NCBI GenBank assembly: GCA_002737665.1
Contig: NSIF01000016.1
Coordinates: 1-36,352, forward strand
From: Flavobacteriales bacterium
Lineage (GTDB): Bacteria > Bacteroidota > Bacteroidia > Palsa-965
Direction of reading: 5' to 3'
DNA: 36,352 bases
The translations under genes and the position numbers were made by a program. The notes under the pieces are model-generated. The model saw only the letters and a list, made by a program, of their open reading frames with translations. It had not been told where the DNA came from and searched no databases. Shown here piece by piece: positions 4,786-16,049 of this stretch (position 1 is the stretch's first letter; each line of letters starts with the position of its first letter).

Positions 4786-5688
4786 TTATATTTTTTCTGC
4801 AATACCAATAATGGTATCTGTCTGATGACTTCTAGATAAAAAATCATTGTACGATTTTTCTAATTGAGCATCATTAAAATGTGTCAATATTTTTTGACCA
4901 CCCGGCTTTCCATCCCGCAACCATCCAAGATGATTGGCCAATGGATGCCGTTGAAATCCTAGAATTTGAATATTTTTAAATCCGGCAGCTTGCAAATAAG
5001 TTTCCAAACTTTTATGAGTGTGTAAAATCAAATGTTCACTCCATAATGTAAATTTTTTAAATGATTCAAGATTATAGCTTGTCAAAAGCGCATCTCCTGC
5101 ATGCGGAACTTCAATAAATACTTTTCCACCAGTATCAAGTGAGGCATTCAACATTTTTAATGAATCCAAAGGATTGGTGATGTGTTCAAATACATGAAAT
5201 AGAGAAATGAAATCAAATTTTGTTTTTTGCTCAGCTAATTCTTTTATTGATGCAAGAGTATTGTATCCAATGTGTGTTAGATTACTTCGAATGTCATTTT
5301 GAGGTTCAACGGCAACAATTTCTTTTGCAAATGGTTTTACTAAATCTAAAATACCTCCAAGGCCAGAACCTACATCGGCAAATTTTTTGCCTAACACATA
5401 TTCCTTTATTTGGCTCGCTCTGCGAACATCATCGATCGCTGTTTCTTTTAATCCTGCTGCACGATCTTCAGAACTCCAATAGGAAGTGCCAGACTTTGCT
5501 TCATAATAAGTAGCACCAACATGGTCTGATCGATCAAGGAAAATTACACCCGATTTTTCACAACGTAAAACACCAACATCATTTCGATCGCGTACCTGAG
5601 GATAAAAAGGATTGATTGAACTCGCATCAATGATTCCGAGTTGAAGTAATTCGTTGTAAATTATATTTGACTTTAAATCAGTTTTCAT
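4786..5688 (-). CDS. Class I SAM-dependent methyltransferase (Methyltransf_23-like)
   Basis: GKKFADVGSGLGGILDLV, FDFISLFHVFEHITNPLDSLKML. ORF reaches 5733 but MKTDLKSN at 5688 is the more natural start. Confidence 0.8.
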   Translation of the reverse strand: MKTDLKSNIIYNELLQLGIIDASSINPFYPQVRDRNDVGVLRCEKSGVIFLDRSDHVGATYYEAKSGTSYWSSEDRAAGLKETAIDDVRRASQIKEYVLGKKFADVGSGLGGILDLVKPFAKEIVAVEPQNDIRSNLTHIGYNTLASIKELAEQKTKFDFISLFHVFEHITNPLDSLKMLNASLDTGGKVFIEVPHAGDALLTSYNLESFKKFTLWSEHLILHTHKSLETYLQAAGFKNIQILGFQRHPLANHLGWLRDGKPGGQKILTHFNDAQLEKSYNDFLSRSHQTDTIIGIAEKI

Positions 5689-5809
5689 TAATTGCAAATT
5701 ACTCATTACTACTAATAACGCTAAAACAACCAATACAATTTGGTTGCTGTAAAGATACTCACATCAATTTAATAGGGCAATCGATACCCAACAAGAACAT
5801 GTTTTAAAA

Positions 5810-7285
5810 TTATTTATTCCTTGTAAATATCTTTTTTACTAAATGATGATATTCAGGGACAATTTTAAAGTACAGTGAAAGCGAGATAAATAAAAGTGTA
5901 ATTAATGAACCTCTGCAAGCAATTGCAAGCCATGGGTTTTCGGGGACAGCCATAAAAATTCCCACAAACAATGCCGTTCCAATAATCACAATTGTCTTTA
6001 CGGTATGCATAGCATACGGTTGCATTCCAAATTTTTTCCATATGTATATAAATTTCATAAAATTATAAAGCGTACTGGCAATACCAGTTGCAATTGCAGC
6101 GCCTTCAATTTCGTAAATAGGAATTAAAAACATATTTAGAAATACCGAAACTACTAATAGAATGGAAAGAAAAAATACACCCCAAATGTATTTTGAGGAA
6201 TTGATAATAATTGGAGAATTAACGCCTGTCGCCATATTTACAATTGAACCAATACTCAAAATAATAGTTACACCTGCAGCAGCTGCAAATTCAGGTTTCA
6301 TTAGACTTAAGAAATCATGAATATTCGTAATGATGCAAACAGCAAGAAAGCCACCAAAAAGAAAAAGTACTCGAACAGAACGATAATAAATTTCTTTGAT
6401 TTCTTCTAAATTATTAACAGCAAAGGCCTGCGCTATTTTTGCAGAAGCAATTCGCTCAATAGAATATAAAGGCGTTTCAATAAATTGAGCCATAAACATA
6501 CCAATCATAAAAATACCACTGAAATTTTCTCCCAAATAACTTCCAATCATCATGTTATCCAGCGACTTCAAACTCAAAGAAGTTAAGGCAGTTAATGTCA
6601 ATAAAAATGTGTACCGAAAAATCCCTGAAATACCAATAGATTTAACAAAACTCCAATCTACTTTTAATCCTGGGCGATCCACGATACATATATAAGCGAT
6701 GAGCAGAAGTAATTGAGTGCCATATGCAATTGCAATACTTAATACAAAAAAGTTTAAGGGAATCCAACCCACACCATAGGCAATAGTTCCTATCACTAAA
6801 ACTATTCTCACCAAAATATCATTCAAAAATGATGGAAATGTTGTTTTTTGCAAACTATTACAATAAGCATTTAACGAGATTGCAAAAGTCATGATTGCTG
6901 CCAAAGGAAATGCAAAATCGAAATATTCAGTAAAGAGCGGGGAATGTTTTGAATAAGATTGAATGAGCCAGTCACGCATAAAATATAACAATACCCCCCC
7001 AATAAGAATTCCCAACATTGGAAATAATAAAACAAAACCTAAAAAACCATGATGTCTTTTTTGCTCATTTTTAAATAATGGAAAATACTTGACGCACATG
7101 TTAGATGCGCCAAGAAGTAAAAAGGTCGTCAACAAAGCACTAAACGATATTAATAAACCAGCCAATCCAATTTCACTCGTAGTTAACCAATGGGGCTGAA
7201 TAAGAATACGGCTTAGAAAGCCGAGGGCCACACCAACATATATAATGATGGTATTAATTAAGCCTTGCTTTTGAATGGTTCCCAA
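5810..7285 (-). CDS. Wzx-like oligosaccharide flippase / polysaccharide biosynthesis protein
   Basis: About 12-14 TM helices; start region LGTIQKQGLINTIIIYVGVALGFLSR is typical of flippases. The listed ORF to 7336 uses a TTG; a TTG at 7285 fits the family better. Confidence 0.8.
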   Translation of the reverse strand: MGTIQKQGLINTIIIYVGVALGFLSRILIQPHWLTTSEIGLAGLLISFSALLTTFLLLGASNMCVKYFPLFKNEQKRHHGFLGFVLLFPMLGILIGGVLLYFMRDWLIQSYSKHSPLFTEYFDFAFPLAAIMTFAISLNAYCNSLQKTTFPSFLNDILVRIVLVIGTIAYGVGWIPLNFFVLSIAIAYGTQLLLLIAYICIVDRPGLKVDWSFVKSIGISGIFRYTFLLTLTALTSLSLKSLDNMMIGSYLGENFSGIFMIGMFMAQFIETPLYSIERIASAKIAQAFAVNNLEEIKEIYYRSVRVLFLFGGFLAVCIITNIHDFLSLMKPEFAAAAGVTIILSIGSIVNMATGVNSPIIINSSKYIWGVFFLSILLVVSVFLNMFLIPIYEIEGAAIATGIASTLYNFMKFIYIWKKFGMQPYAMHTVKTIVIIGTALFVGIFMAVPENPWLAIACRGSLITLLFISLSLYFKIVPEYHHLVKKIFTRNK

Positions 7286-7326
7286 TTTGATAGGTTTAGG
7301 TACTTTTACAACGGGTATAAAAATAG

Positions 7327-8493
7327 ATGAAATCAAGACACGTACGAATCTTCCTTAGCACATCGCAAATCTGCACTATTTATGCTACGCTGCTCGCTAA
7401 AGCAACGCGGCAGGAAGGAGATGCAGCTATTTTATTCATAGATGGCAGTAAACGGAAGCAAGGCCTAATAGATTTGATTACCAAAACCTCTAAAATATAT
7501 CCTTGGACACTTTTACATGATTTTTCAATTCCCATGGGTGAAGACCATGATTATAACCCAACAATTGGTAAAAATATTACCAGAAAATTTAAAAATTGGC
7601 CTTTTATCAAATCAATTTATGATTTCATGCTTAAAAAACACATGGATCGTATTGACATTCACTACCGAAAAGAGCTGCTCTTACAATTAAACCCGTATTT
7701 GACAAAAGACACTCAGATAAGTTTATACATGCTCACCCAAACTTATTTAAACCGTCCATTGATGCAATTATTCCCTTCCGCCTCCATCAATTACATCGAG
7801 CATGGAATGGGTGATTACTATTATATACTGGACCCAAAAACACCAAAAGGAAACTTTTATTGTCTTTTTTCAGAAGGATATAAAAAATTTCTAACGAAAA
7901 ATGGACAGTCCGCAAATTGGGTGAAAAATTTACCAGACGTAAACTCTTTTTCTGAAATTGCGAAGCAACTTAATAATGATCAAGAAAATAAATCGAATGT
8001 CGATAAGTTAAAAATTCCTGAACTGCCTATCGTATTTATTTTATTGGAAGCCGTCGATATGTATAATATAAAGAGTGCATTTTGGTCGGAATATCTAAAT
8101 CATATTTTTTTACAATTAGAAAAACCAAAGCAATACCATTATTTACTCAAGCCACACCCCATGCAGTCGGCAGACTCAATGGTTGCAACTATCAAGCATT
8201 TGGATTCCCTTGGCTATTCCTATTCAATTTTAGATGAATCTCAATTAATTAATACGAGTGCAGAGGTGTTATTTTCTATTTGGGAAAAACAAACAAGACA
8301 CGTCTTCTGTTTATTTTCATCGGGTTGTTATTACCTGTCACAACTGTACACAGGAACTAACATACAATATTGGTATTCTACCGAATTTCTGAGTCATTAC
8401 ATATCGAATGCGCCACCACAATTTAAAAAAATGTTTGTTGAAATACGGCCCATCATAGAAGAAGTCTTAACAGAAAAATGCAAGTCTTACTAA
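7327..8493 (+). CDS. Polysialyltransferase-like (alpha-2,8) glycosyltransferase
   Basis: N-term MKSRHVRIFLSTSQICTIYATLLA; IEHGMGDY, LLKPHPMQ and FSSGCYYLSQLY motifs resemble the bacterial sialyl/polysialyltransferase E/D-x-G, HP and S-S/T-x arrangement. Confidence 0.55.
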   Translation: MKSRHVRIFLSTSQICTIYATLLAKATRQEGDAAILFIDGSKRKQGLIDLITKTSKIYPWTLLHDFSIPMGEDHDYNPTIGKNITRKFKNWPFIKSIYDFMLKKHMDRIDIHYRKELLLQLNPYLTKDTQISLYMLTQTYLNRPLMQLFPSASINYIEHGMGDYYYILDPKTPKGNFYCLFSEGYKKFLTKNGQSANWVKNLPDVNSFSEIAKQLNNDQENKSNVDKLKIPELPIVFILLEAVDMYNIKSAFWSEYLNHIFLQLEKPKQYHYLLKPHPMQSADSMVATIKHLDSLGYSYSILDESQLINTSAEVLFSIWEKQTRHVFCLFSSGCYYLSQLYTGTNIQYWYSTEFLSHYISNAPPQFKKMFVEIRPIIEEVLTEKCKSY

Positions 8494-9272
8494 AGACTCC
8501 AACCATCATCGACCAGAATATTCTGACCGTTCACAAAAGTTGAAGCATCACTCAATAAGAAGAGTAATGTACCGCAAATATCCTGTTCTTTCAGCAAACC
8601 TTTCGTATTGCCAAAAGAATTGTATTGTTGAATAAAAGAATCAGGTTGATTATTCTCTATTCCTCCTGGAGAAATTGAATTGCAACGGATATTTTTCCCT
8701 TTAAAATAGCGCGACATGTATTTTGTTAAATGAATGACGCCGGCTTTCAAAACAGCATACTCTACAGGCATTGTCATTGGTGTACCATCATAAATTTCAA
8801 AACGAGGTGGCACAACACCATAAACTGAAGCCAAGTTCACAATATTACCAGCATTTTGATTCATAAAATAATTAGCAAAATGTTTGGAGCAACTAAAATA
8901 CCCACCCACATGCATCCCCACATTTTCTACAAAATCGTGATAGGCTACATCTTCAAAAACTTTACCATAGTTTTTATTACGTGGATAAGCATTATTTACC
9001 AAAGCATCGATTTTTCCAAATTTAGCATGTGTAGTTTCAATCAATACCTCAACAGAGGAATCAGAAGTAACATCTAAAGAGCAAAATATTGCGCGCCCTT
9101 CAAATCTACTCGCTAGATCAAGAACTAATTCCTTCCCTGAAGCATCACTTTTATCTGCTACAACTACACTACCGCCAGCAACACAAATAGCTTCGCAAAA
9201 TACTCGGCCGAGCAAACCTGCTCCACCAGTTACAACAATAACTTTTCCTTTCAGTTCCATATTATTTTTCAA
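8490..9272 (-). CDS. Classical short-chain dehydrogenase/reductase
   Basis: VVTGGAGLLGRVFCEA Rossmann motif, NNAYP, catalytic YAVLK (YxxxK), NSISPGGI. Confidence 0.88.
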   Translation of the reverse strand: MKNNMELKGKVIVVTGGAGLLGRVFCEAICVAGGSVVVADKSDASGKELVLDLASRFEGRAIFCSLDVTSDSSVEVLIETTHAKFGKIDALVNNAYPRNKNYGKVFEDVAYHDFVENVGMHVGGYFSCSKHFANYFMNQNAGNIVNLASVYGVVPPRFEIYDGTPMTMPVEYAVLKAGVIHLTKYMSRYFKGKNIRCNSISPGGIENNQPDSFIQQYNSFGNTKGLLKEQDICGTLLFLLSDASTFVNGQNILVDDGWSL

Positions 9273-9999
9273 TTTCTAAAATTGACCAATTCATTAAATA
9301 GCCTGCAGAAATTTGCAATCGACCCTTTTCAGAATTCACCGTAAAAGTACCAATCCCAGTTCCCTCAAATGTAAAATCAATTTCAGGAATAAATTCATGT
9401 AATTTAAATTTATTTACCTTATTAGTTAGCCATTTCGAAACTGTTTTGGAAGAATAAGTATTGTAAGAAAATCCCAAACCGACTGATTCATTCGACTGAC
9501 TATGGTCAAGAAGTTTTGCAAAAATATCTACGTTGTGATGCAAATTAAAAAGCGAACTGGCATAAATTTTCCCCCCTGGCTTTGTAATACGAATTAATTC
9601 TTGCAATGCCTTCTCAGGTTCATCTAACCAAGATAAAGTTTGCCAACAACAAACTAAGTCATACTTATTATCAGGAATGTGTTTGAGGTTATAAATATTC
9701 GCTTGAATATAAGTACATGAAGGACCATTTAATTCCTGGGCCAACTTCAATCCATCTTCATTAAAATCGGAAAGCATGAAACGAGCATTCGGATAAATAG
9801 AACGCAGGTGAAAAGAAAGTGTTCCTCCACCACAAGCAATGTCAGCTATGTCTTTAAATATTTTCCCGGAATCTAACAAAAGTGTTTCGAGAAATTTTTG
9901 TTGCTCCGTTTTAACAATAGATTTGGCATAATATTTCTTTGTCTCCTCACTGTTCGCTTGGAGTGCCTTTACATAATCATTTCCTTGCTCGTCGCCCAT
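9262..9999 (-). CDS. Class I SAM-dependent methyltransferase (Methyltransf_11/25-like)
   Basis: DIADIACGGGTLSFHLR, CCWQTLSWLDEPEKALQELIRITKPGGKIYAS. Confidence 0.82.
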   Translation of the reverse strand: MGDEQGNDYVKALQANSEETKKYYAKSIVKTEQQKFLETLLLDSGKIFKDIADIACGGGTLSFHLRSIYPNARFMLSDFNEDGLKLAQELNGPSCTYIQANIYNLKHIPDNKYDLVCCWQTLSWLDEPEKALQELIRITKPGGKIYASSLFNLHHNVDIFAKLLDHSQSNESVGLGFSYNTYSSKTVSKWLTNKVNKFKLHEFIPEIDFTFEGTGIGTFTVNSEKGRLQISAGYLMNWSILEIEK

Positions 10000-11379
10000 C
10001 TAATTATATTTTCTGAACACAGGTTTTATAGCACGTCCTACTAAATATTTTTCCACACCATCATGCAGCGCAGCTTTATAAACTTTCAATGATTTTTCGA
10101 CAGCAGCAAGCGTCAAATCTAATTCAGTTGAACCATGTGAATAAGAAAGTGCTACCCAAGGAATTAAGACTCCGTTCTTGATCATTTCTTGAGAAAACAA
10201 AGTTCTAAATTCAAGTGACGCTTGACCATTTTTATCTTTCGTAAAATAATAAGGTGAACAGGCGAAACCTTCAGCACTGAAATTATTCTCAATACCAAGG
10301 TTTTTTGATATTGAATTCATTCCTGTAATTAACTTTTTACCATAATCCCACAAATGTGAAGTTACAGCTAAGGTCTTGTAAACCTCCACCGTCTTTATAA
10401 ATGCCCCAAAAGCCGACATTTCAGATCCATGTGTAGTTGAAATCAAAAAAACGCGTTCAGCACCCTCATTACGAATTCCGCCAAGATCCATGATTTCTTT
10501 TTTACCAACAAGTGCAGCCAATGCAAATCCATTTGCCATTCCTTTTCCAAACGTAGCCAAATCGGGCTCAATATCATACACCTTCATTGCGCCCTGCAAA
10601 TCCCACCGAAAGCCTGTAATCATTTCATCCAAAATAAAAACAGCACCATTTTTTTTACAGAGTGCTTTTACCTGATGAAGAAAATTTAATGTTTTAGCTG
10701 TACATGCTATTTTATCTGTACAAGTTGTTTTATTTCCACAAGCTGTTTTATCTAAAATAAGTTTCCCATCGCCAGCACAAGGAGAAACAAAAGTTGCGGG
10801 TTCAAGAATAACACATGCAATTTGATTTGGATATTCCGCAAATAATTTTTCAAGCGAAGCAATATCATTGTAATTAAATTTCAAACTATTCGCCTTTTCC
10901 TCAGAAGGAATGCCTTTATCCATTGGAGTAGTGCCAATAAACCAATCGTCATACGTAAAGAAAGGATGTTCTGCAGCCATCGCTACAAATTTCTTTCCAG
11001 TATAGGCACGTGCAAGTTTGACAGCTGCTGTGGTAACAATTGAACCGTTCTTAGCAAACTTAACCTGATCTGCCCATGGGAAAAGACTAACCATTAATTC
11101 CGCCGCTTCTAATTCAGACAAGGAAGCACGTGTAAGGTTATTGCCCTTTCTAATTTCTGCAATACCAGCTTCAGAAATTTCATCGTAATTATAACCAACA
11201 GTTACAGAACGCAAGCCCATTCCATAATCCAAAAATTTATTTCCATCGGGATCAAATACATAAGCACCTTTTCCGTGAGACAGAATTTGAGGTGCATTCA
11301 AAGGATATTGATCATCGCCACGACTGTAGGTATGAGCGCCACCAGGAATTACTTTATTTAATCGATCACTGTAATTCAT
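10000..11379 (-). CDS. Class III PLP aminotransferase, glutamate-1-semialdehyde 2,1-aminomutase-like
   Basis: PGGAHTYSRGDDQYP, KFAKNGSIVTTAAVKLARAYTG, FILDEMITGFR, FGKGMANGFALAALVG (PLP lysine). Confidence 0.87.
   Translation of the reverse strand: MNYSDRLNKVIPGGAHTYSRGDDQYPLNAPQILSHGKGAYVFDPDGNKFLDYGMGLRSVTVGYNYDEISEAGIAEIRKGNNLTRASLSELEAAELMVSLFPWADQVKFAKNGSIVTTAAVKLARAYTGKKFVAMAAEHPFFTYDDWFIGTTPMDKGIPSEEKANSLKFNYNDIASLEKLFAEYPNQIACVILEPATFVSPCAGDGKLILDKTACGNKTTCTDKIACTAKTLNFLHQVKALCKKNGAVFILDEMITGFRWDLQGAMKVYDIEPDLATFGKGMANGFALAALVGKKEIMDLGGIRNEGAERVFLISTTHGSEMSAFGAFIKTVEVYKTLAVTSHLWDYGKKLITGMNSISKNLGIENNFSAEGFACSPYYFTKDKNGQASLEFRTLFSQEMIKNGVLIPWVALSYSHGSTELDLTLAAVEKSLKVYKAALHDGVEKYLVGRAIKPVFRKYN
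10692..10745 (-). repeat. Three degenerate 18-bp tandem repeats inside the aminotransferase CDS
   Basis: ttttagctgtacatgcta / ttttatctgtacaagttg / ttttatttccacaagctg; encodes KTACGN-KTTCTD-KIACTA. Confidence 0.75.
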
Positions 11380-11488
11380 AATAAATGAAATTCAAAAAAG
11401 AAAAAAACAAATCTCAATATATTTTGAGAAAATTTAGATTTCAACCTTTTGATTTATAATTCTTTTATTGATTTTTATAATTTGATTT

Positions 11489-12220
11489 TTATTCTAAAGT
11501 TCCCTCTTCTTTTGCTTTCATTAATGTTTCAATGAGCATAAAATCAACAAGATCGTCAATTTCAAATGATTTCCATTTTGGCATTTCAAATCCCAATGTT
11601 TTTTCGTGATAAAATGTTTTACGCTGGCGTAGAGCTGTCACCTTGGAAATATACATACTCCCTTCAAAAAAATAAACGTCGTCAATTTCCTGTCTACGTT
11701 TGAATATGAAATTTTCACCTGCATACGAAGTGATGAAATGTTCTTTGTTTTTCAATGCAAGAAATGCAGGATTGCCGCTCTCCGTTCTGCAAATTCCTAC
11801 TACACTTTCAGCACCCTCTGTATGTTGTAACAAATTAAATGCGCTAAGAATATCCTGATCATCTCGCTGTGGCGATGTGGCTTCCAACATACACACATAA
11901 TCAAACTCCTCCCCTACATTCTCAAAATAAGCTAAAGCATGTAAAACAACATCTATTGATGTCGAAGTATCTGTCGCTAATTCAAGCGGACGCATAAAAG
12001 GAACTTCAGCATTGAATTGAAGTGCAACATCAGCTATTTCCTGACTATCAGTTGAAACAACAACCCTTCCATTTATTTTTTCTGCAACAGCCAAAGCCGT
12101 TTCAATAGTCCAAGCAACTAATGGTTTTCCCAACATCGGAAGTGTATTTTTCCCCGGAAGCCCTTTGCTTCCACCACGTGCAGGAATTAAAAATAAAACA
12201 CTCGGCTTAGTTGGAGTCAT
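11489..12220 (-). CDS. neuA: Acylneuraminate (CMP-nonulosonate) cytidylyltransferase, NeuA/LegF/PseF-like
   Basis: FLIPARGGSKGLPGKNTLPMLGKPLVAWTIETA, VVVSTDSQEIADVA, CMLEATSPQRDDQDI. ORF reaches 12247; ATG at 12220 precedes the conserved start. Confidence 0.87.
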   Translation of the reverse strand: MTPTKPSVLFLIPARGGSKGLPGKNTLPMLGKPLVAWTIETALAVAEKINGRVVVSTDSQEIADVALQFNAEVPFMRPLELATDTSTSIDVVLHALAYFENVGEEFDYVCMLEATSPQRDDQDILSAFNLLQHTEGAESVVGICRTESGNPAFLALKNKEHFITSYAGENFIFKRRQEIDDVYFFEGSMYISKVTALRQRKTFYHEKTLGFEMPKWKSFEIDDLVDFMLIETLMKAKEEGTLE

Positions 12221-13679
12221 TGAGCTTTCGCGTTTTGAAAATGGCACTTACTGCTTTAAGAATACTATTTTGTTCTTCAGCAGAAATAGTAACTGAAGAA
12301 GGCAAACTTATTCCATTTCTTGAAAGGTGATCGGTCACAGGAAATGTTTGTCCATTTCTTACATATTCTAAATAAGGTGGCATAGCATGTAGCGGATAAA
12401 AAACGGGGCGAGTTTCTACTCCATTCTTCATTAACTTTTCTATTAATTCATCACGCGATACACCACCTTTAGGATCAATAATTGCTGTGTACAGCCAATA
12501 ACCATTAAACGCCCATTCCATTTCAGGTGGAATCGTAATATGCGTATTGACACTTAAACCCGCATTATAAACAGCAGCCATGTTTCTTTTCGCTTTCACA
12601 AATTCATCTAATCGTTCCAATTGAGCAACACCAATAGCAGCTTGAATATTTGTCATGCGATAATTAAATCCAACGAAATCGTGCCAATATCTTTTTTGTT
12701 TCGACATTCCATGATCACGAAGTACCATTGCTTTGTTACAAACATTTTCATCTTTAAATAAAACCATTCCACCTTCACCTGTTGTAATTGTTTTATTTCC
12801 GAAGAAACTAAAAGTTGCTGCATCTCCAAATGAGCCAACATGCTGACCTTTATAAAGCGCACCCAAAGCTTCAGCACAATCTTCAATCACTAACAAATTA
12901 TGTTCTTTGGCAATTGCCATCAATTCATCCATGTGACAAGGATGTCCATAAATATGGACAGGCATTATGGCTTTTGTTTTTGGAGTAATTAATTTTTTAA
13001 CTGCCTCCGGAGAAAGTGTCCAGGTTTCAGCATCAACATCTGCAATAACAGGCGTTGCTCCTGTGTAAATGACTCCGTTAATTGATGCAGCAAACGTTAA
13101 ATCAGGTACAATTACTTCATCGCCTTCACCAATTCCAAGTGCGACAAGCGCAAGGTGAATAGCAACAGTTCCATTGCTAACAGCAACACCGTATTGCATG
13201 GCAGAATATTCAGCAAATACTTGTTCGAATTTTTTTACGTAAGCACCTTGAGAAGAAATCCATCCTGTGGTAATACATTCGGTAACATATTTTAATTCGT
13301 TACCATTCAACAATGGAGTCATTACAGGAATACGATGCGCCCTTGTAAAACTTGCATAATCAACAGGTACATTATTTTCATCGACAAGTGGAATATGTCT
13401 AATCCGATCGGTTATTGTTGCTTGAATCTGATCTATTGGCGTGGTAACAGGTAAGGATGTGTATTTTGTCTGCATGACATCCATCACTTTACTCTCCACC
13501 GATTTACCATCAATCAAAGCACGACGAATATCTCCATCTGTAACTACACCAATTAATTTACCAGATTGGTCAACTACGAAACAAGTTCCCTGTGCATTGG
13601 AATCGATAATTTTAAGGGCATCCTTTACTGCTCGATCGGCGGTAATAATGAATTCATTAATTTCAGGACTGTGGCTCAT
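12207..13679 (-). CDS. CBS-domain pair fused to DegT/DnrJ/EryC1/StrS sugar aminotransferase
   Basis: N-term CBS: FVVDQSGKLIGVVTDGDIRRAL, RIRHIPLVDENN. C-term: GWISSQGAYVKKFE, VSNGTVAIHLAL, VIEDCAEALGA, FSFFGNKTITTGEGGM, YRMTNIQAAIG. Confidence 0.9.
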   Translation of the reverse strand: MSHSPEINEFIITADRAVKDALKIIDSNAQGTCFVVDQSGKLIGVVTDGDIRRALIDGKSVESKVMDVMQTKYTSLPVTTPIDQIQATITDRIRHIPLVDENNVPVDYASFTRAHRIPVMTPLLNGNELKYVTECITTGWISSQGAYVKKFEQVFAEYSAMQYGVAVSNGTVAIHLALVALGIGEGDEVIVPDLTFAASINGVIYTGATPVIADVDAETWTLSPEAVKKLITPKTKAIMPVHIYGHPCHMDELMAIAKEHNLLVIEDCAEALGALYKGQHVGSFGDAATFSFFGNKTITTGEGGMVLFKDENVCNKAMVLRDHGMSKQKRYWHDFVGFNYRMTNIQAAIGVAQLERLDEFVKAKRNMAAVYNAGLSVNTHITIPPEMEWAFNGYWLYTAIIDPKGGVSRDELIEKLMKNGVETRPVFYPLHAMPPYLEYVRNGQTFPVTDHLSRNGISLPSSVTISAEEQNSILKAVSAIFKTRKLNDSN

Positions 13680-13699
13680 TAATTTTTAATTTCTGATAT

Positions 13700-13707
13700 C
13701 AAAGTTA
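13700..13707 (-). promoter_or_regulatory. Putative -7 element TAACTTTG upstream of the CBS-aminotransferase
   Basis: caaagtta on + strand, 20 nt before the start codon, in a 59-bp gap. Confidence 0.35.
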
Positions 13708-13738
13708 CAATAATTGGGGTAAAAATTGGACAAGCATT

Positions 13739-15013
13739 TTAAAAAGCAATTTTAGAAAACAACAGATTTTCCAATCCTTTCAATTCAGCTGCACTTTGTT
13801 TTCTAACCTCCAAAACATGCAATGACTGAGGTACTTGTTTTAAAAAGGGTAAAAACCAGTAATTCTCATCAAACGGTTTATTATTGTCTTGTAAGCCATC
13901 ATTATCAGAATGATGAATACAACGAGTAAAAGGAAGGATTTTTTGAGTCGCCTCAGCTAAATTAAAATTTAACGTATTAGCGGAAACTTTTAAATGGGCT
14001 GTGTCGAACAATATGCCACATCGCGGGTCAGCAATTTCCTCAATCATAAGCAACATTTCATCGGCTTCTACATTCAGTAATGGATTTAAGCCGTTCGTAT
14101 AAACATTCATTTTTGCTAACACATTATTTTCCAACAAAAAACCAGTAGGTAAATCCAATGTTGCATGGAGCACTTCACGAATTGATGCCAAAAAATAATG
14201 CCAATGCTTTGCACGATCAAATGAAGCTATTTTACTTAGTTCTTTGCCAAGTTCAGCAGGTTGAGGATCGACACAAAAGCCAGCATGAGCGGAAAAAAAA
14301 GGAGCACCAACCGCAAAACTCAATTGTATTCCACGAACACAATGCGAAATTGATTTTCGACGAATTTCTTCGTCGCCACTACCTAAATTTAAAACAAAAG
14401 GAATTTCAGGCGCAGGGAAATAATTATGAGCAAATCGTTTGATTGGCGCGTTTAAAAATAATTCCTCTAGCTCTGGACTAAATGCCATGCCAGAAGAAAA
14501 TTCCAGAATAAAATTATTTTCTTTTGCAACATCAATGATATTTTCTGCCGTCTGTCCCGCGAACGCAAGAGAACTTATTACTGCTTGCTTCGAAACGGGT
14601 AGCTGCCATTCATAAAACCCAAATAATTCTTTTTTTTCTATGAGTTGAAAATCAAACTGCTCATACAATTTTATGGCTGCTTCATTCACATGATCAACAG
14701 CTAACTTTACTTTAGATAATCCAATGGAGCTTGCAGAAGCCATCAACCGGCCCATCATTATTCTTCCCAATCCTTTTCCAATGGAATTACTCTTAACCGC
14801 AATACCTAACCAAATTGTTTCTCCTTCCCTATCGAGATGTCCATATGCTTTAACATCGCCATCCTCTTCAATGACCCAGGTACAAAGGTGGTTTTCAATA
14901 ACTGTAAATGGGCGAGAAGAAAAATAGCGAAAGGAGTCCAATGATTTGCCGGCCTGAGCAACAAATTGCTCAAGTAATATAATGTTCGAACTGTTAACGC
15001 GAATAAATTTCAT
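13739..15013 (-). CDS. GNAT N-acetyltransferase fused to xylose-isomerase-like TIM barrel (AP_endonuc_2 type)
   Basis: aa 1-~137 GNAT (GIAVKSNSIGKGLGRIMMGRLM, NEAAIKLYEQFDFQ); aa ~145-424 TIM barrel with HAGF, LLENN, ILFDTAHL, IHHSDNDG, HVLEVR metal-ligand-type motifs. Confidence 0.75.
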   Translation of the reverse strand: MKFIRVNSSNIILLEQFVAQAGKSLDSFRYFSSRPFTVIENHLCTWVIEEDGDVKAYGHLDREGETIWLGIAVKSNSIGKGLGRIMMGRLMASASSIGLSKVKLAVDHVNEAAIKLYEQFDFQLIEKKELFGFYEWQLPVSKQAVISSLAFAGQTAENIIDVAKENNFILEFSSGMAFSPELEELFLNAPIKRFAHNYFPAPEIPFVLNLGSGDEEIRRKSISHCVRGIQLSFAVGAPFFSAHAGFCVDPQPAELGKELSKIASFDRAKHWHYFLASIREVLHATLDLPTGFLLENNVLAKMNVYTNGLNPLLNVEADEMLLMIEEIADPRCGILFDTAHLKVSANTLNFNLAEATQKILPFTRCIHHSDNDGLQDNNKPFDENYWFLPFLKQVPQSLHVLEVRKQSAAELKGLENLLFSKIAF

Positions 15014-15026
15014 TTTAAAAATGTAA

Positions 15027-16049
15027 TTAGAAATTAAAATCTTGCAAATCAGTTCCAGTAAACGCCTCGTCCTTATTCACATCTTTCAATAATTTCTTCC
15101 CAATAACTAATTCCAACATTTTGGGTGCTAATCCATTTGCCGGACGTTTAAATCCGATATGTTCTGCAGAAAGAATTGTTCCTTTTTTTAAGTCTAATTT
15201 AGCAACTATACTTCTGCGCATACCGAAAGTATTTTTTACTTCAGCAGCCGATGGGTTTTTGATTCCGTCACCAATACATTTTTCAATGTTTCGTACACCC
15301 TGAATTAATTCCAAGAATTCCTTTGGCTCCAGAGAACTGGAATGGTCAGGACCGGGCAATTCTTTATTGAGTGTAAAATGTTTCTCAATTACTTCAGCGC
15401 CTAAAGCAACCGCTGCAAAACACGCATAATTATTAGGTACATGATCCGAATAGCCGATTGTGACATTTAACTCATCGCGCATCGTTATCATGGCGCTGAT
15501 GTTTGTGTCTTCAATTTTTGAAGGATAATCGGTGTTGCATTGCAATACAACTAAATTTTTATTTCCTGTACTGTGAATGGCTTCAACCGCTTCTCTCACT
15601 TCTTGCATCGTTGCCATTCCTGTCGAAATAATTAGCTGCTTGCCAAATTTTGCAACATATTTCAAGAACGGTGTTTCCACTAATTGGCCGGAAGCAATTT
15701 TGAATCCGTCAACACCAATACTGTTCAATAAATCAGCATCTTCTAAATTATAGGGAGTCGACAAAAAACGGATTCCTTTTTTATCGCAATGATCTTTAAT
15801 AGTTTTGAAAGCATCTCGACTCAATTCGAGTTTTTTCAACATATCGAATTGCGATTCATTTTTATCAGTCACTTGAAGCTGGTAATTTGCTTTGGGTGAA
15901 TTGGCAGTAACAATTTGTTCCGCCCTGAAAGTCTGAAATTTCACACAATCAGCACCAATCTCAACAGCTTTATCAACCAGTTGCAGTGCTAATTCAAGAC
16001 TTCCATTGTGATTCACACCCGCCTCAGCAATTATAAAAACTCTTACCAT
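15027..16049 (-). CDS. neuB: Sialic-acid-like (nonulosonate) synthase, NeuB/LegI family, with C-terminal SAF domain
   Basis: FIIAEAGVNHNGSLELALQLVDKAVEIGADCVKFQTF, ISTGMATMQEV, IGYSDHV, EKHFTLNKELPGPDHSSSLEP, RRSIVAKLDLKKGTIL. Confidence 0.93.
   Translation of the reverse strand: MVRVFIIAEAGVNHNGSLELALQLVDKAVEIGADCVKFQTFRAEQIVTANSPKANYQLQVTDKNESQFDMLKKLELSRDAFKTIKDHCDKKGIRFLSTPYNLEDADLLNSIGVDGFKIASGQLVETPFLKYVAKFGKQLIISTGMATMQEVREAVEAIHSTGNKNLVVLQCNTDYPSKIEDTNISAMITMRDELNVTIGYSDHVPNNYACFAAVALGAEVIEKHFTLNKELPGPDHSSSLEPKEFLELIQGVRNIEKCIGDGIKNPSAAEVKNTFGMRRSIVAKLDLKKGTILSAEHIGFKRPANGLAPKMLELVIGKKLLKDVNKDEAFTGTDLQDFNF

Follow-up and report, generated by a model that had tools for sequence, protein, structure and literature searches.

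How might an operon built around a NeuB-type synthase make a nonulosonate (NulO) when the usual hydrolysing 2-epimerase and 4,6-dehydratase are missing from it? The question is raised by a 36,352-nucleotide stretch of Flavobacteriales DNA, called the window below, in which seven minus-strand open reading frames (ORFs) occupy positions 8490-16049 (Table 1). None of NeuC/LegG, PseG, LegB or PseB is encoded within the window. A preliminary description of this DNA had listed the seven genes, and its account of them stands: the ORFs have the order and coordinates it gave, and its family descriptions agree with Pfam and NCBIfam searches of the window proteins in which the family cut-offs were applied.

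From gene content, linkage, family placement and the conservation of metal ligands, which are what was observed, we infer that the operon probably makes a CMP-activated NulO by way of GDP-perosamine, and with this route its substrates, the reaction of the TIM barrel and the product. GDP-mannose 4,6-dehydratase (GMD), encoded elsewhere in the genome and shared with GDP-fucose synthesis, would convert GDP-mannose to GDP-4-keto-6-deoxymannose. The DegT-type aminotransferase fused to CBS domains (CBS-DegT) would aminate C-4 to give GDP-perosamine, which the GNAT domain would N-acetylate to GDP-N-acylperosamine. The fused TIM barrel, as a multinuclear metal hydrolase, would free 4-acetamido-4,6-dideoxymannose from GDP, and NeuB would combine this sugar with phosphoenolpyruvate to form 7-acetamido-3,7,9-trideoxynonulosonate. 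The predicted NulO has a 5-hydroxyl, as in Kdn, and the 7-N-acyl and 9-deoxy features of legionaminate. After the cytidylyltransferase had produced CMP-NulO, the short-chain dehydrogenase/reductase (SDR), class-III aminotransferase and methyltransferase would decorate the sugar, perhaps turning the C-8 hydroxyl into an amine, and a sialyltransferase-like enzyme and a flippase would use the decorated product. Such a route needs no 2-epimerase: the configuration that NeuC would otherwise produce is present in mannose from the start. For the same reason the TIM barrel is likelier to be a hydrolase, and the suggestion in the preliminary description that it substitutes for the missing epimerase is probably wrong.

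Are the canonical genes simply located elsewhere? The window is contig 8 of a 1.65 Mb metagenome-assembled genome that is 66.6% complete and encodes a single NeuB. Since this genome is incomplete, a 100% complete genome of the same genus (G001) is the better witness for absences. It carries the seven genes in identical order, at 70-87% identity, and after them counterparts of the window's convergent gene and flippase. The genome-wide search proposed earlier found no NeuC and no LegG (a NeuC-like hydrolysing 2-epimerase) above cut-off in either genome and no match to PseG in either; for LegB, TIGR04180 scored under its cut-off in both. The NeuC-like matches in these two genomes and in the other genomes with the TIM gene proved on checking to be WecB equivalogs and were rejected. 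The CBS-DegT aminotransferase reaches 381.7 bits with the LegC profile TIGR04181, under its cut-off of 420. NeuB itself scores 431 bits with TIGR03569 (cut-off 399.65) and matches PF03102 and PF08666 above cut-off. On gene content, then, the operon lacks the canonical 2-epimerase and hydrolases and has no one-to-one match to a described pathway, as had been claimed.

The core of the operon recurs widely. Scanning with an alignment of TIM domains yielded 80 loci; Bacteroidota account for 47 of them, and at least 12 phyla are represented. Cultured organisms that have the module include Crocinitomix catalasitica ATCC 23190, Flagellimonas algicola and the genetically tractable cyanobacterium Picosynechococcus sp. 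PCC 7117. Within six ORFs of the TIM gene, NeuB is found in 77 of the 80 (the pairing that the preliminary description had proposed to survey), a DegT aminotransferase in 75 (CBS-fused in 65), a CMP-transferase in 64 and a recognised acyl or formyl transferase in 65; NeuC or PseG is found in none. Because the loci were selected by TIM, the linkage to NeuB is an independent result. GNAT-TIM, NeuB, CBS-aminotransferase and CMP-transferase form a conserved module, and this recurrence, together with the shared gene order in G001, places the operon beyond chance. The slot preceding TIM holds a NeuD-type acetyltransferase, a GNAT or an N-formyltransferase (PF00551 in five loci). Most Bacteroidota loci have the NeuD type and an unfused TIM; in the window's group GNAT is fused to TIM.

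TIM and NeuC also exclude each other. Among 197 related genomes, 29 encode a NeuB above the TIGR03569 cut-off: 21 have NeuC without TIM, eight have TIM without NeuC, and none has both or neither (Fisher p = 2.3e-7, with shared ancestry ignored). One further genome (G164), whose NeuB is just under the cut-off, has both, with NeuC on another contig beside LegB. With NeuB of this kind, then, TIM stands where NeuC would otherwise be. Taken alone, the exclusion fits two readings: either TIM performs the NeuC step or the pathway needs no NeuC. The first would be a Leg- or Neu-type route from NDP-GlcNAc in which TIM is a hydrolysing 2-epimerase. In its favour, the TIM fold family includes sugar 3-epimerases, and a PglF/WbpM-like 4,6-dehydratase is encoded in the window's own genome and beside two TIM loci (L067 and L086). 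We nevertheless regard it as unlikely, at perhaps one chance in five or six: TIM would have to carry out both steps, or else the route would lack an NDP-sugar hydrolase to free the sugar, the metal ligands of TIM exceed a four-ligand epimerase site, and the dehydratases and aminotransferases of the module, described next, point elsewhere.

Which 4,6-dehydratase accompanies TIM? As controls we used 20 NeuC-linked NeuB loci (L223-L242). Where a 4,6-dehydratase is present in a TIM locus it is GMD in 17 of 18 cases, another enzyme in one and LegB in none, so that LegB is absent from all 80 loci and GMD present in 17; in the NeuC loci GMD accounts for 0 of 11, with ten LegB and one PglF-like enzyme (TIM versus NeuC, p = 3.5e-7). 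The GMD identity is secure, at 545-592 bits with TIGR01472 (cut-off 415) and up to 68% identity to E. coli Gmd, and PDB comparison agrees. A reading of the SDR that adjoins DegT in the relatives as LegB was rejected, since NCBIfam identifies it as GMD; it is this identification that overturns the epimerase idea. Two loci (L120 and L125) have the window-type GNAT-TIM fusion, a NeuB 57% identical to that of the window, and GMD directly after the aminotransferase. The window's own genome encodes GMD (G000:C13, 604.8 bits) outside the window, beside fcl, the GDP-fucose synthase gene, so GDP-4-keto-6-deoxymannose should be available. The earlier claim that a dehydratase is missing therefore holds for LegB and PseB in the window, but the activity itself is probably not missing, given GMD in the operons of relatives and elsewhere in this genome.

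The aminotransferase appears to point the same way. The best solved relative of the window's CBS-DegT is perosamine synthetase 3dr7, and the window protein is 48% identical to the Caulobacter enzyme. Median identity to Caulobacter perosamine synthetase is 47% for CBS-DegT proteins (n = 63) versus 34% for NeuC-linked aminotransferases (n = 15). We propose that the window protein is a perosamine synthase, acting as a GDP-4-keto-6-deoxymannose 4-aminotransferase. NeuD-type, GNAT and formyltransferase enzymes, the kinds found ahead of TIM, are all N-acylating kinds known for perosamine. The set known from Brucella combines gmd, per and the formyltransferase gene wbkC (PMC1435926). As a separate observation, the CBS domains of the NeuC-linked controls lie in a separate gene of about 350 codons in a PtmE-like position and those of TIM loci are fused to the aminotransferase; in Lysinibacillus capsici (L127, 4297-9996) they are joined to a mannose-6-phosphate-isomerase-like cupin, in a module with GMD, DegT, NeuB and a PurN-like formyltransferase. 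CBS thus moves between partners in such clusters.

What, then, does the TIM barrel do? The AlphaFold model of the TIM enzyme is confident, with a predicted local distance difference test score (pLDDT) of 95.9. By both profile and fold, the nearest solved relative of TIM is MJ1311, a protein of unknown function described as tagatose 3-epimerase-like. The barrel has a ligand set like that of endonuclease IV (Endo IV): H196, H243, E295, D337, H340, H367, D376, N378 and E402. In a profile alignment to E. coli Nfo, its H109, E145, D179/H182 (DTxH), H216, D229 and E261 pair with TIM residues that are invariant or near-invariant in 59 sequences, and H231 corresponds to Asn. Eight of the nine trinuclear-zinc positions are kept, one of them (H69) by position only. 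The single-metal epimerase UlaE lacks equivalents of H109 and H182. These conserved ligands favour TIM as a multinuclear phosphohydrolase. We did not file it as an Endo IV, because MJ1311 and UlaE are better full-length and fold matches, with Endo IV following them. Our proposal is that the fusion protein combines a GDP-perosamine N-acetyltransferase with a GDP-N-acetylperosamine hydrolase; a GDP-sugar hydrolase would be exactly the step that a route from perosamine to NulO requires.

The same evidence bears on two further explanations. TIM might instead isomerise or epimerise a free or nucleotide-linked sugar within a perosamine route, an unlinked Nudix enzyme or phosphatase releasing the sugar. 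The resemblance to MJ1311 would suit this, as would the presence of the epimerase ligands within the Endo IV site. Against it, the ligands beyond that set suggest a multinuclear hydrolase, and TIM is the only conserved gene able to release the sugar and adjoins the acyltransferase, often as a fusion, so we give this version about one chance in eight. Or TIM might be a phosphatase that removes a 9-phosphate, as in the animal pathway through Neu5Ac-9-phosphate. Cleavage of a phosphoester would suit an Endo IV-like site, and a phosphatase step of this sort has been proposed for Leptospira interrogans, in which LA_1613 fuses NeuB to an 'endonuclease' domain (PMC3438082; PMC4758666). The module has no conserved kinase, however, and a DegT 4-aminotransferase acting on a 4-keto-6-deoxy sugar leaves no 6-hydroxyl to phosphorylate; on the latter ground we rejected this route, which seems very improbable.

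The synthase is less decisive. In the compared set the window NeuB is nearest to NeuB_NnaB, and its catalytic residues are conserved (E25, K53, Q55, Y186, E234, H236, D247 and R314 in Nm numbering). At the position credited with specificity for the sugar C-2, Neu and Leg synthases have Gly and Pse synthases Phe (PMC7371886). We took this position by alignment to be Nm 133; the window NeuB has Gly there, not the Phe of Pse synthases. Positions 133/134 are Thr-Asp in most TIM-linked NeuB proteins, Gly-Gln in the window's group and Gly-Glu in NeuC-linked ones, and both TIM-linked types are found together with GMD. Differences beside the C-2 pocket would agree with a different C-2 substituent in the substrate.

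Several observations weigh against a perosamine route. The window NeuB shares Gly-133 with Neu and Leg synthases and, of positions 133 and 134, differs from NeuC-linked enzymes at 134 alone. GMD lies in only 17-18 of the 80 TIM loci, and its presence in every TIM genome does not discriminate, since it is common, being encoded in 159 of the 197 related genomes (81%). In the DegT tree, which held one perosamine synthase only, that of Caulobacter falls among the CBS-DegT proteins (support 97/96) and apart from the NeuC-linked clade, but an approximately unbiased test did not reject its grouping with NeuC-linked aminotransferases (p = 0.26), and GMD-adjacent aminotransferases without CBS form a separate clade. 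A fold search with TIM scores MJ1311, UlaE, tagatose epimerases and Endo IV alike, so that fold alone does not separate an epimerase from Endo IV, and the residue equivalent to Endo IV H69, an invariant His after strand 2, is matched by position with differing spacing. Finally, the own genome is incomplete, and its WbpM/PglF-like dehydratase leaves room for a route from UDP-GlcNAc.

How does the proposed pathway compare with known systems? The legionaminic pathway of Campylobacter and Legionella (LegB-LegC-LegH-LegG-LegI-LegF, with PtmE) likewise unites a NeuB-type synthase, DegT, N-acetyltransferase and CMP-transferase in one operon and is a precedent for GDP-linked precursors. The window operon differs in having TIM in place of LegB and LegG/NeuC, GMD in its relatives, and CBS fused to the aminotransferase rather than to the nucleotidyltransferase. 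In the sps genes of Bacillus subtilis and Leg pathways with UDP-linked precursors we again find a NeuB-type synthase (SpsE), DegT, acetyltransferase and CMP-transferase, but in Bacillus these accompany the dehydratase SpsM and the PseG/NeuC-like SpsG. The synthesis of GDP-perosamine and its N-acyl forms (Brucella gmd, per and wbkC; Caulobacter perosamine synthetase) shares GMD, a perosamine-synthase-like aminotransferase and an N-acyl or N-formyl transferase; there the sugar is an end product, whereas in the window it would be a NulO precursor, with TIM, NeuB and CMP-transferase following, and CBS is fused. The Endo IV (Nfo)/tagatose 3-epimerase/UlaE family (AP_endonuc_2) shares the xylose-isomerase-like barrel and most Endo IV ligands; the window TIM is set apart by the Asn for H231, by a long insertion after strand 2 (HNYFPPP...FVLNL), and by its link to sugar synthesis where Nfo serves DNA repair. 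The nearest precedent is the Leptospira fusion: by the papers' descriptions, LA_1613 joins NeuB to the endonuclease-like domain, with a pyridoxal-phosphate-dependent aminotransferase and a CMP-transferase adjoining (LA_1614/LA_1615).

In the open-access literature we found no description that joins perosamine with NulO synthesis, nor any of this TIM or of the predicted sugar; as far as searched, both route and product are undescribed. The chances are about even that these loci represent a fourth, widespread NulO class, one that starts from GDP-mannose and GDP-perosamine, uses a previously unassigned TIM metallohydrolase and makes unseen 5-hydroxy-7-acylamido-9-deoxy NulOs, here aminated and methylated. 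Current annotation assigns such clusters to sialic, legionaminic or pseudaminic acid. Should the perosamine route hold, these labels are mistaken for a module that spans at least 12 phyla and is commonest, in this set, among marine and freshwater Bacteroidota; the Leptospira fusion gains an alternative reading, a new sugar class can be sought by mass spectrometry, and a TIM-barrel family acquires its first function.

The remaining genes of the operon are plausibly decoration enzymes. The class-III aminotransferase scores 635 bits with NF004856 (cut-off 486) and the SDR 330 bits with NF006619 (cut-off 255), though 245 bits with the PtmA-like profile, under its cut-off of 350. The two lie no more than three genes apart in eight of the 80 TIM loci and two of the 20 controls, which marks them as accessory, not route-specific; class-III (glutamate-1-semialdehyde-type) aminotransferases also stand beside NeuC and PseG clusters. 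Among the relatives, the methyltransferase is confined to the same genus. We propose that the SDR oxidises a NulO hydroxyl and that the aminotransferase acts on the resulting keto group. C-8 is suggested as the site by two precedents: 8-epimerisation of NulOs involves the related SDRs EpaB/AciE (PMC12053666), and Flexibacter maritimus, also of Bacteroidota, is a known source of an 8-amino NulO (PMC3210612). The convergent gene beside the operon, itself conserved there, encodes a protein that matches no Pfam or NCBIfam family. Its model (pLDDT 83.6) has a GT-B fold with the bacterial polysialyltransferase 5wcn as second Foldseek match, EHG and KPHP motifs are conserved, and one NeuC cluster (L238) contains a homologue. 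On this modelling it is possibly a NulO transferase, perhaps of a new family.

Table 1. Genes and putative promoters of the operon and its flanks (positions in the window)
Feature	Position	Strand	Basis
NeuB-type nonulosonate synthase with SAF domain	15027..16049	-	Pfam/NCBIfam, residue alignment
Fusion of GNAT N-acetyltransferase (residues 1-138, approximate) and xylose-isomerase-like TIM barrel (residues 143-424, approximate)	13739..15013	-	GNAT + AP_endonuc_2
CBS domains fused to DegT-type aminotransferase	12207..13679	-	CBS + DegT
CMP-nonulosonate cytidylyltransferase	11489..12247	-	CTP_transf_3; PseF-like, under PseF cut-off
Class-III aminotransferase, glutamate-1-semialdehyde aminomutase-like (NF004856/PRK06209)	10000..11379	-	
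S-adenosylmethionine-dependent methyltransferase	9262..9999	-	Methyltransf_11
Classical SDR, PtmA-like	8490..9272	-	NF006619 equivalog
MATE/Wzx-like flippase adjoining operon, adjacency conserved	5810..7336	-	
Convergent gene, candidate CMP-NulO transferase	7327..8493	+	predicted GT-B fold
Putative promoter, motif TAnnTTTG (TACCTTTG), 5 bases upstream of neuB start codon	16055..16062	-	sequence read
Possible internal promoter TAACTTTG, TAnnTTTG-type, in gap ahead of CBS-aminotransferase gene	13700..13707	-	sequence read

Both putative promoters carry what we take to be the -7 type motif of the Bacteroidota sigma factor. Two ORFs may be shorter than listed: an ATG near 12220 may be the start of the CMP-transferase, and one near 9260 that of the SDR. 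A Methyltransf_23 protein is encoded at 4786-5733 on the minus strand of the window; in other families, too, TIM modules repeatedly have a homologue of it alongside, at 49-56% identity.

Several NulO pathways are able to coexist in one genome: G102 and G164 (L028, L029, L050 and L051) have, besides the TIM module, separate PseG clusters in both and a NeuC/LegB cluster in G164. Many TIM modules, moreover, have beside them a second set of genes, which encodes a divergent NeuB (about 30% identical and scoring under the NeuB and PseI cut-offs), a member of the DapA/NanA family and an additional CMP-transferase (L055, L060, L062, L064, L089, L092, L109, L113, L130, L131 and others). A NeuB paired in this way with a protein of the aldolase family suggests another ulosonate pathway, likewise undescribed.

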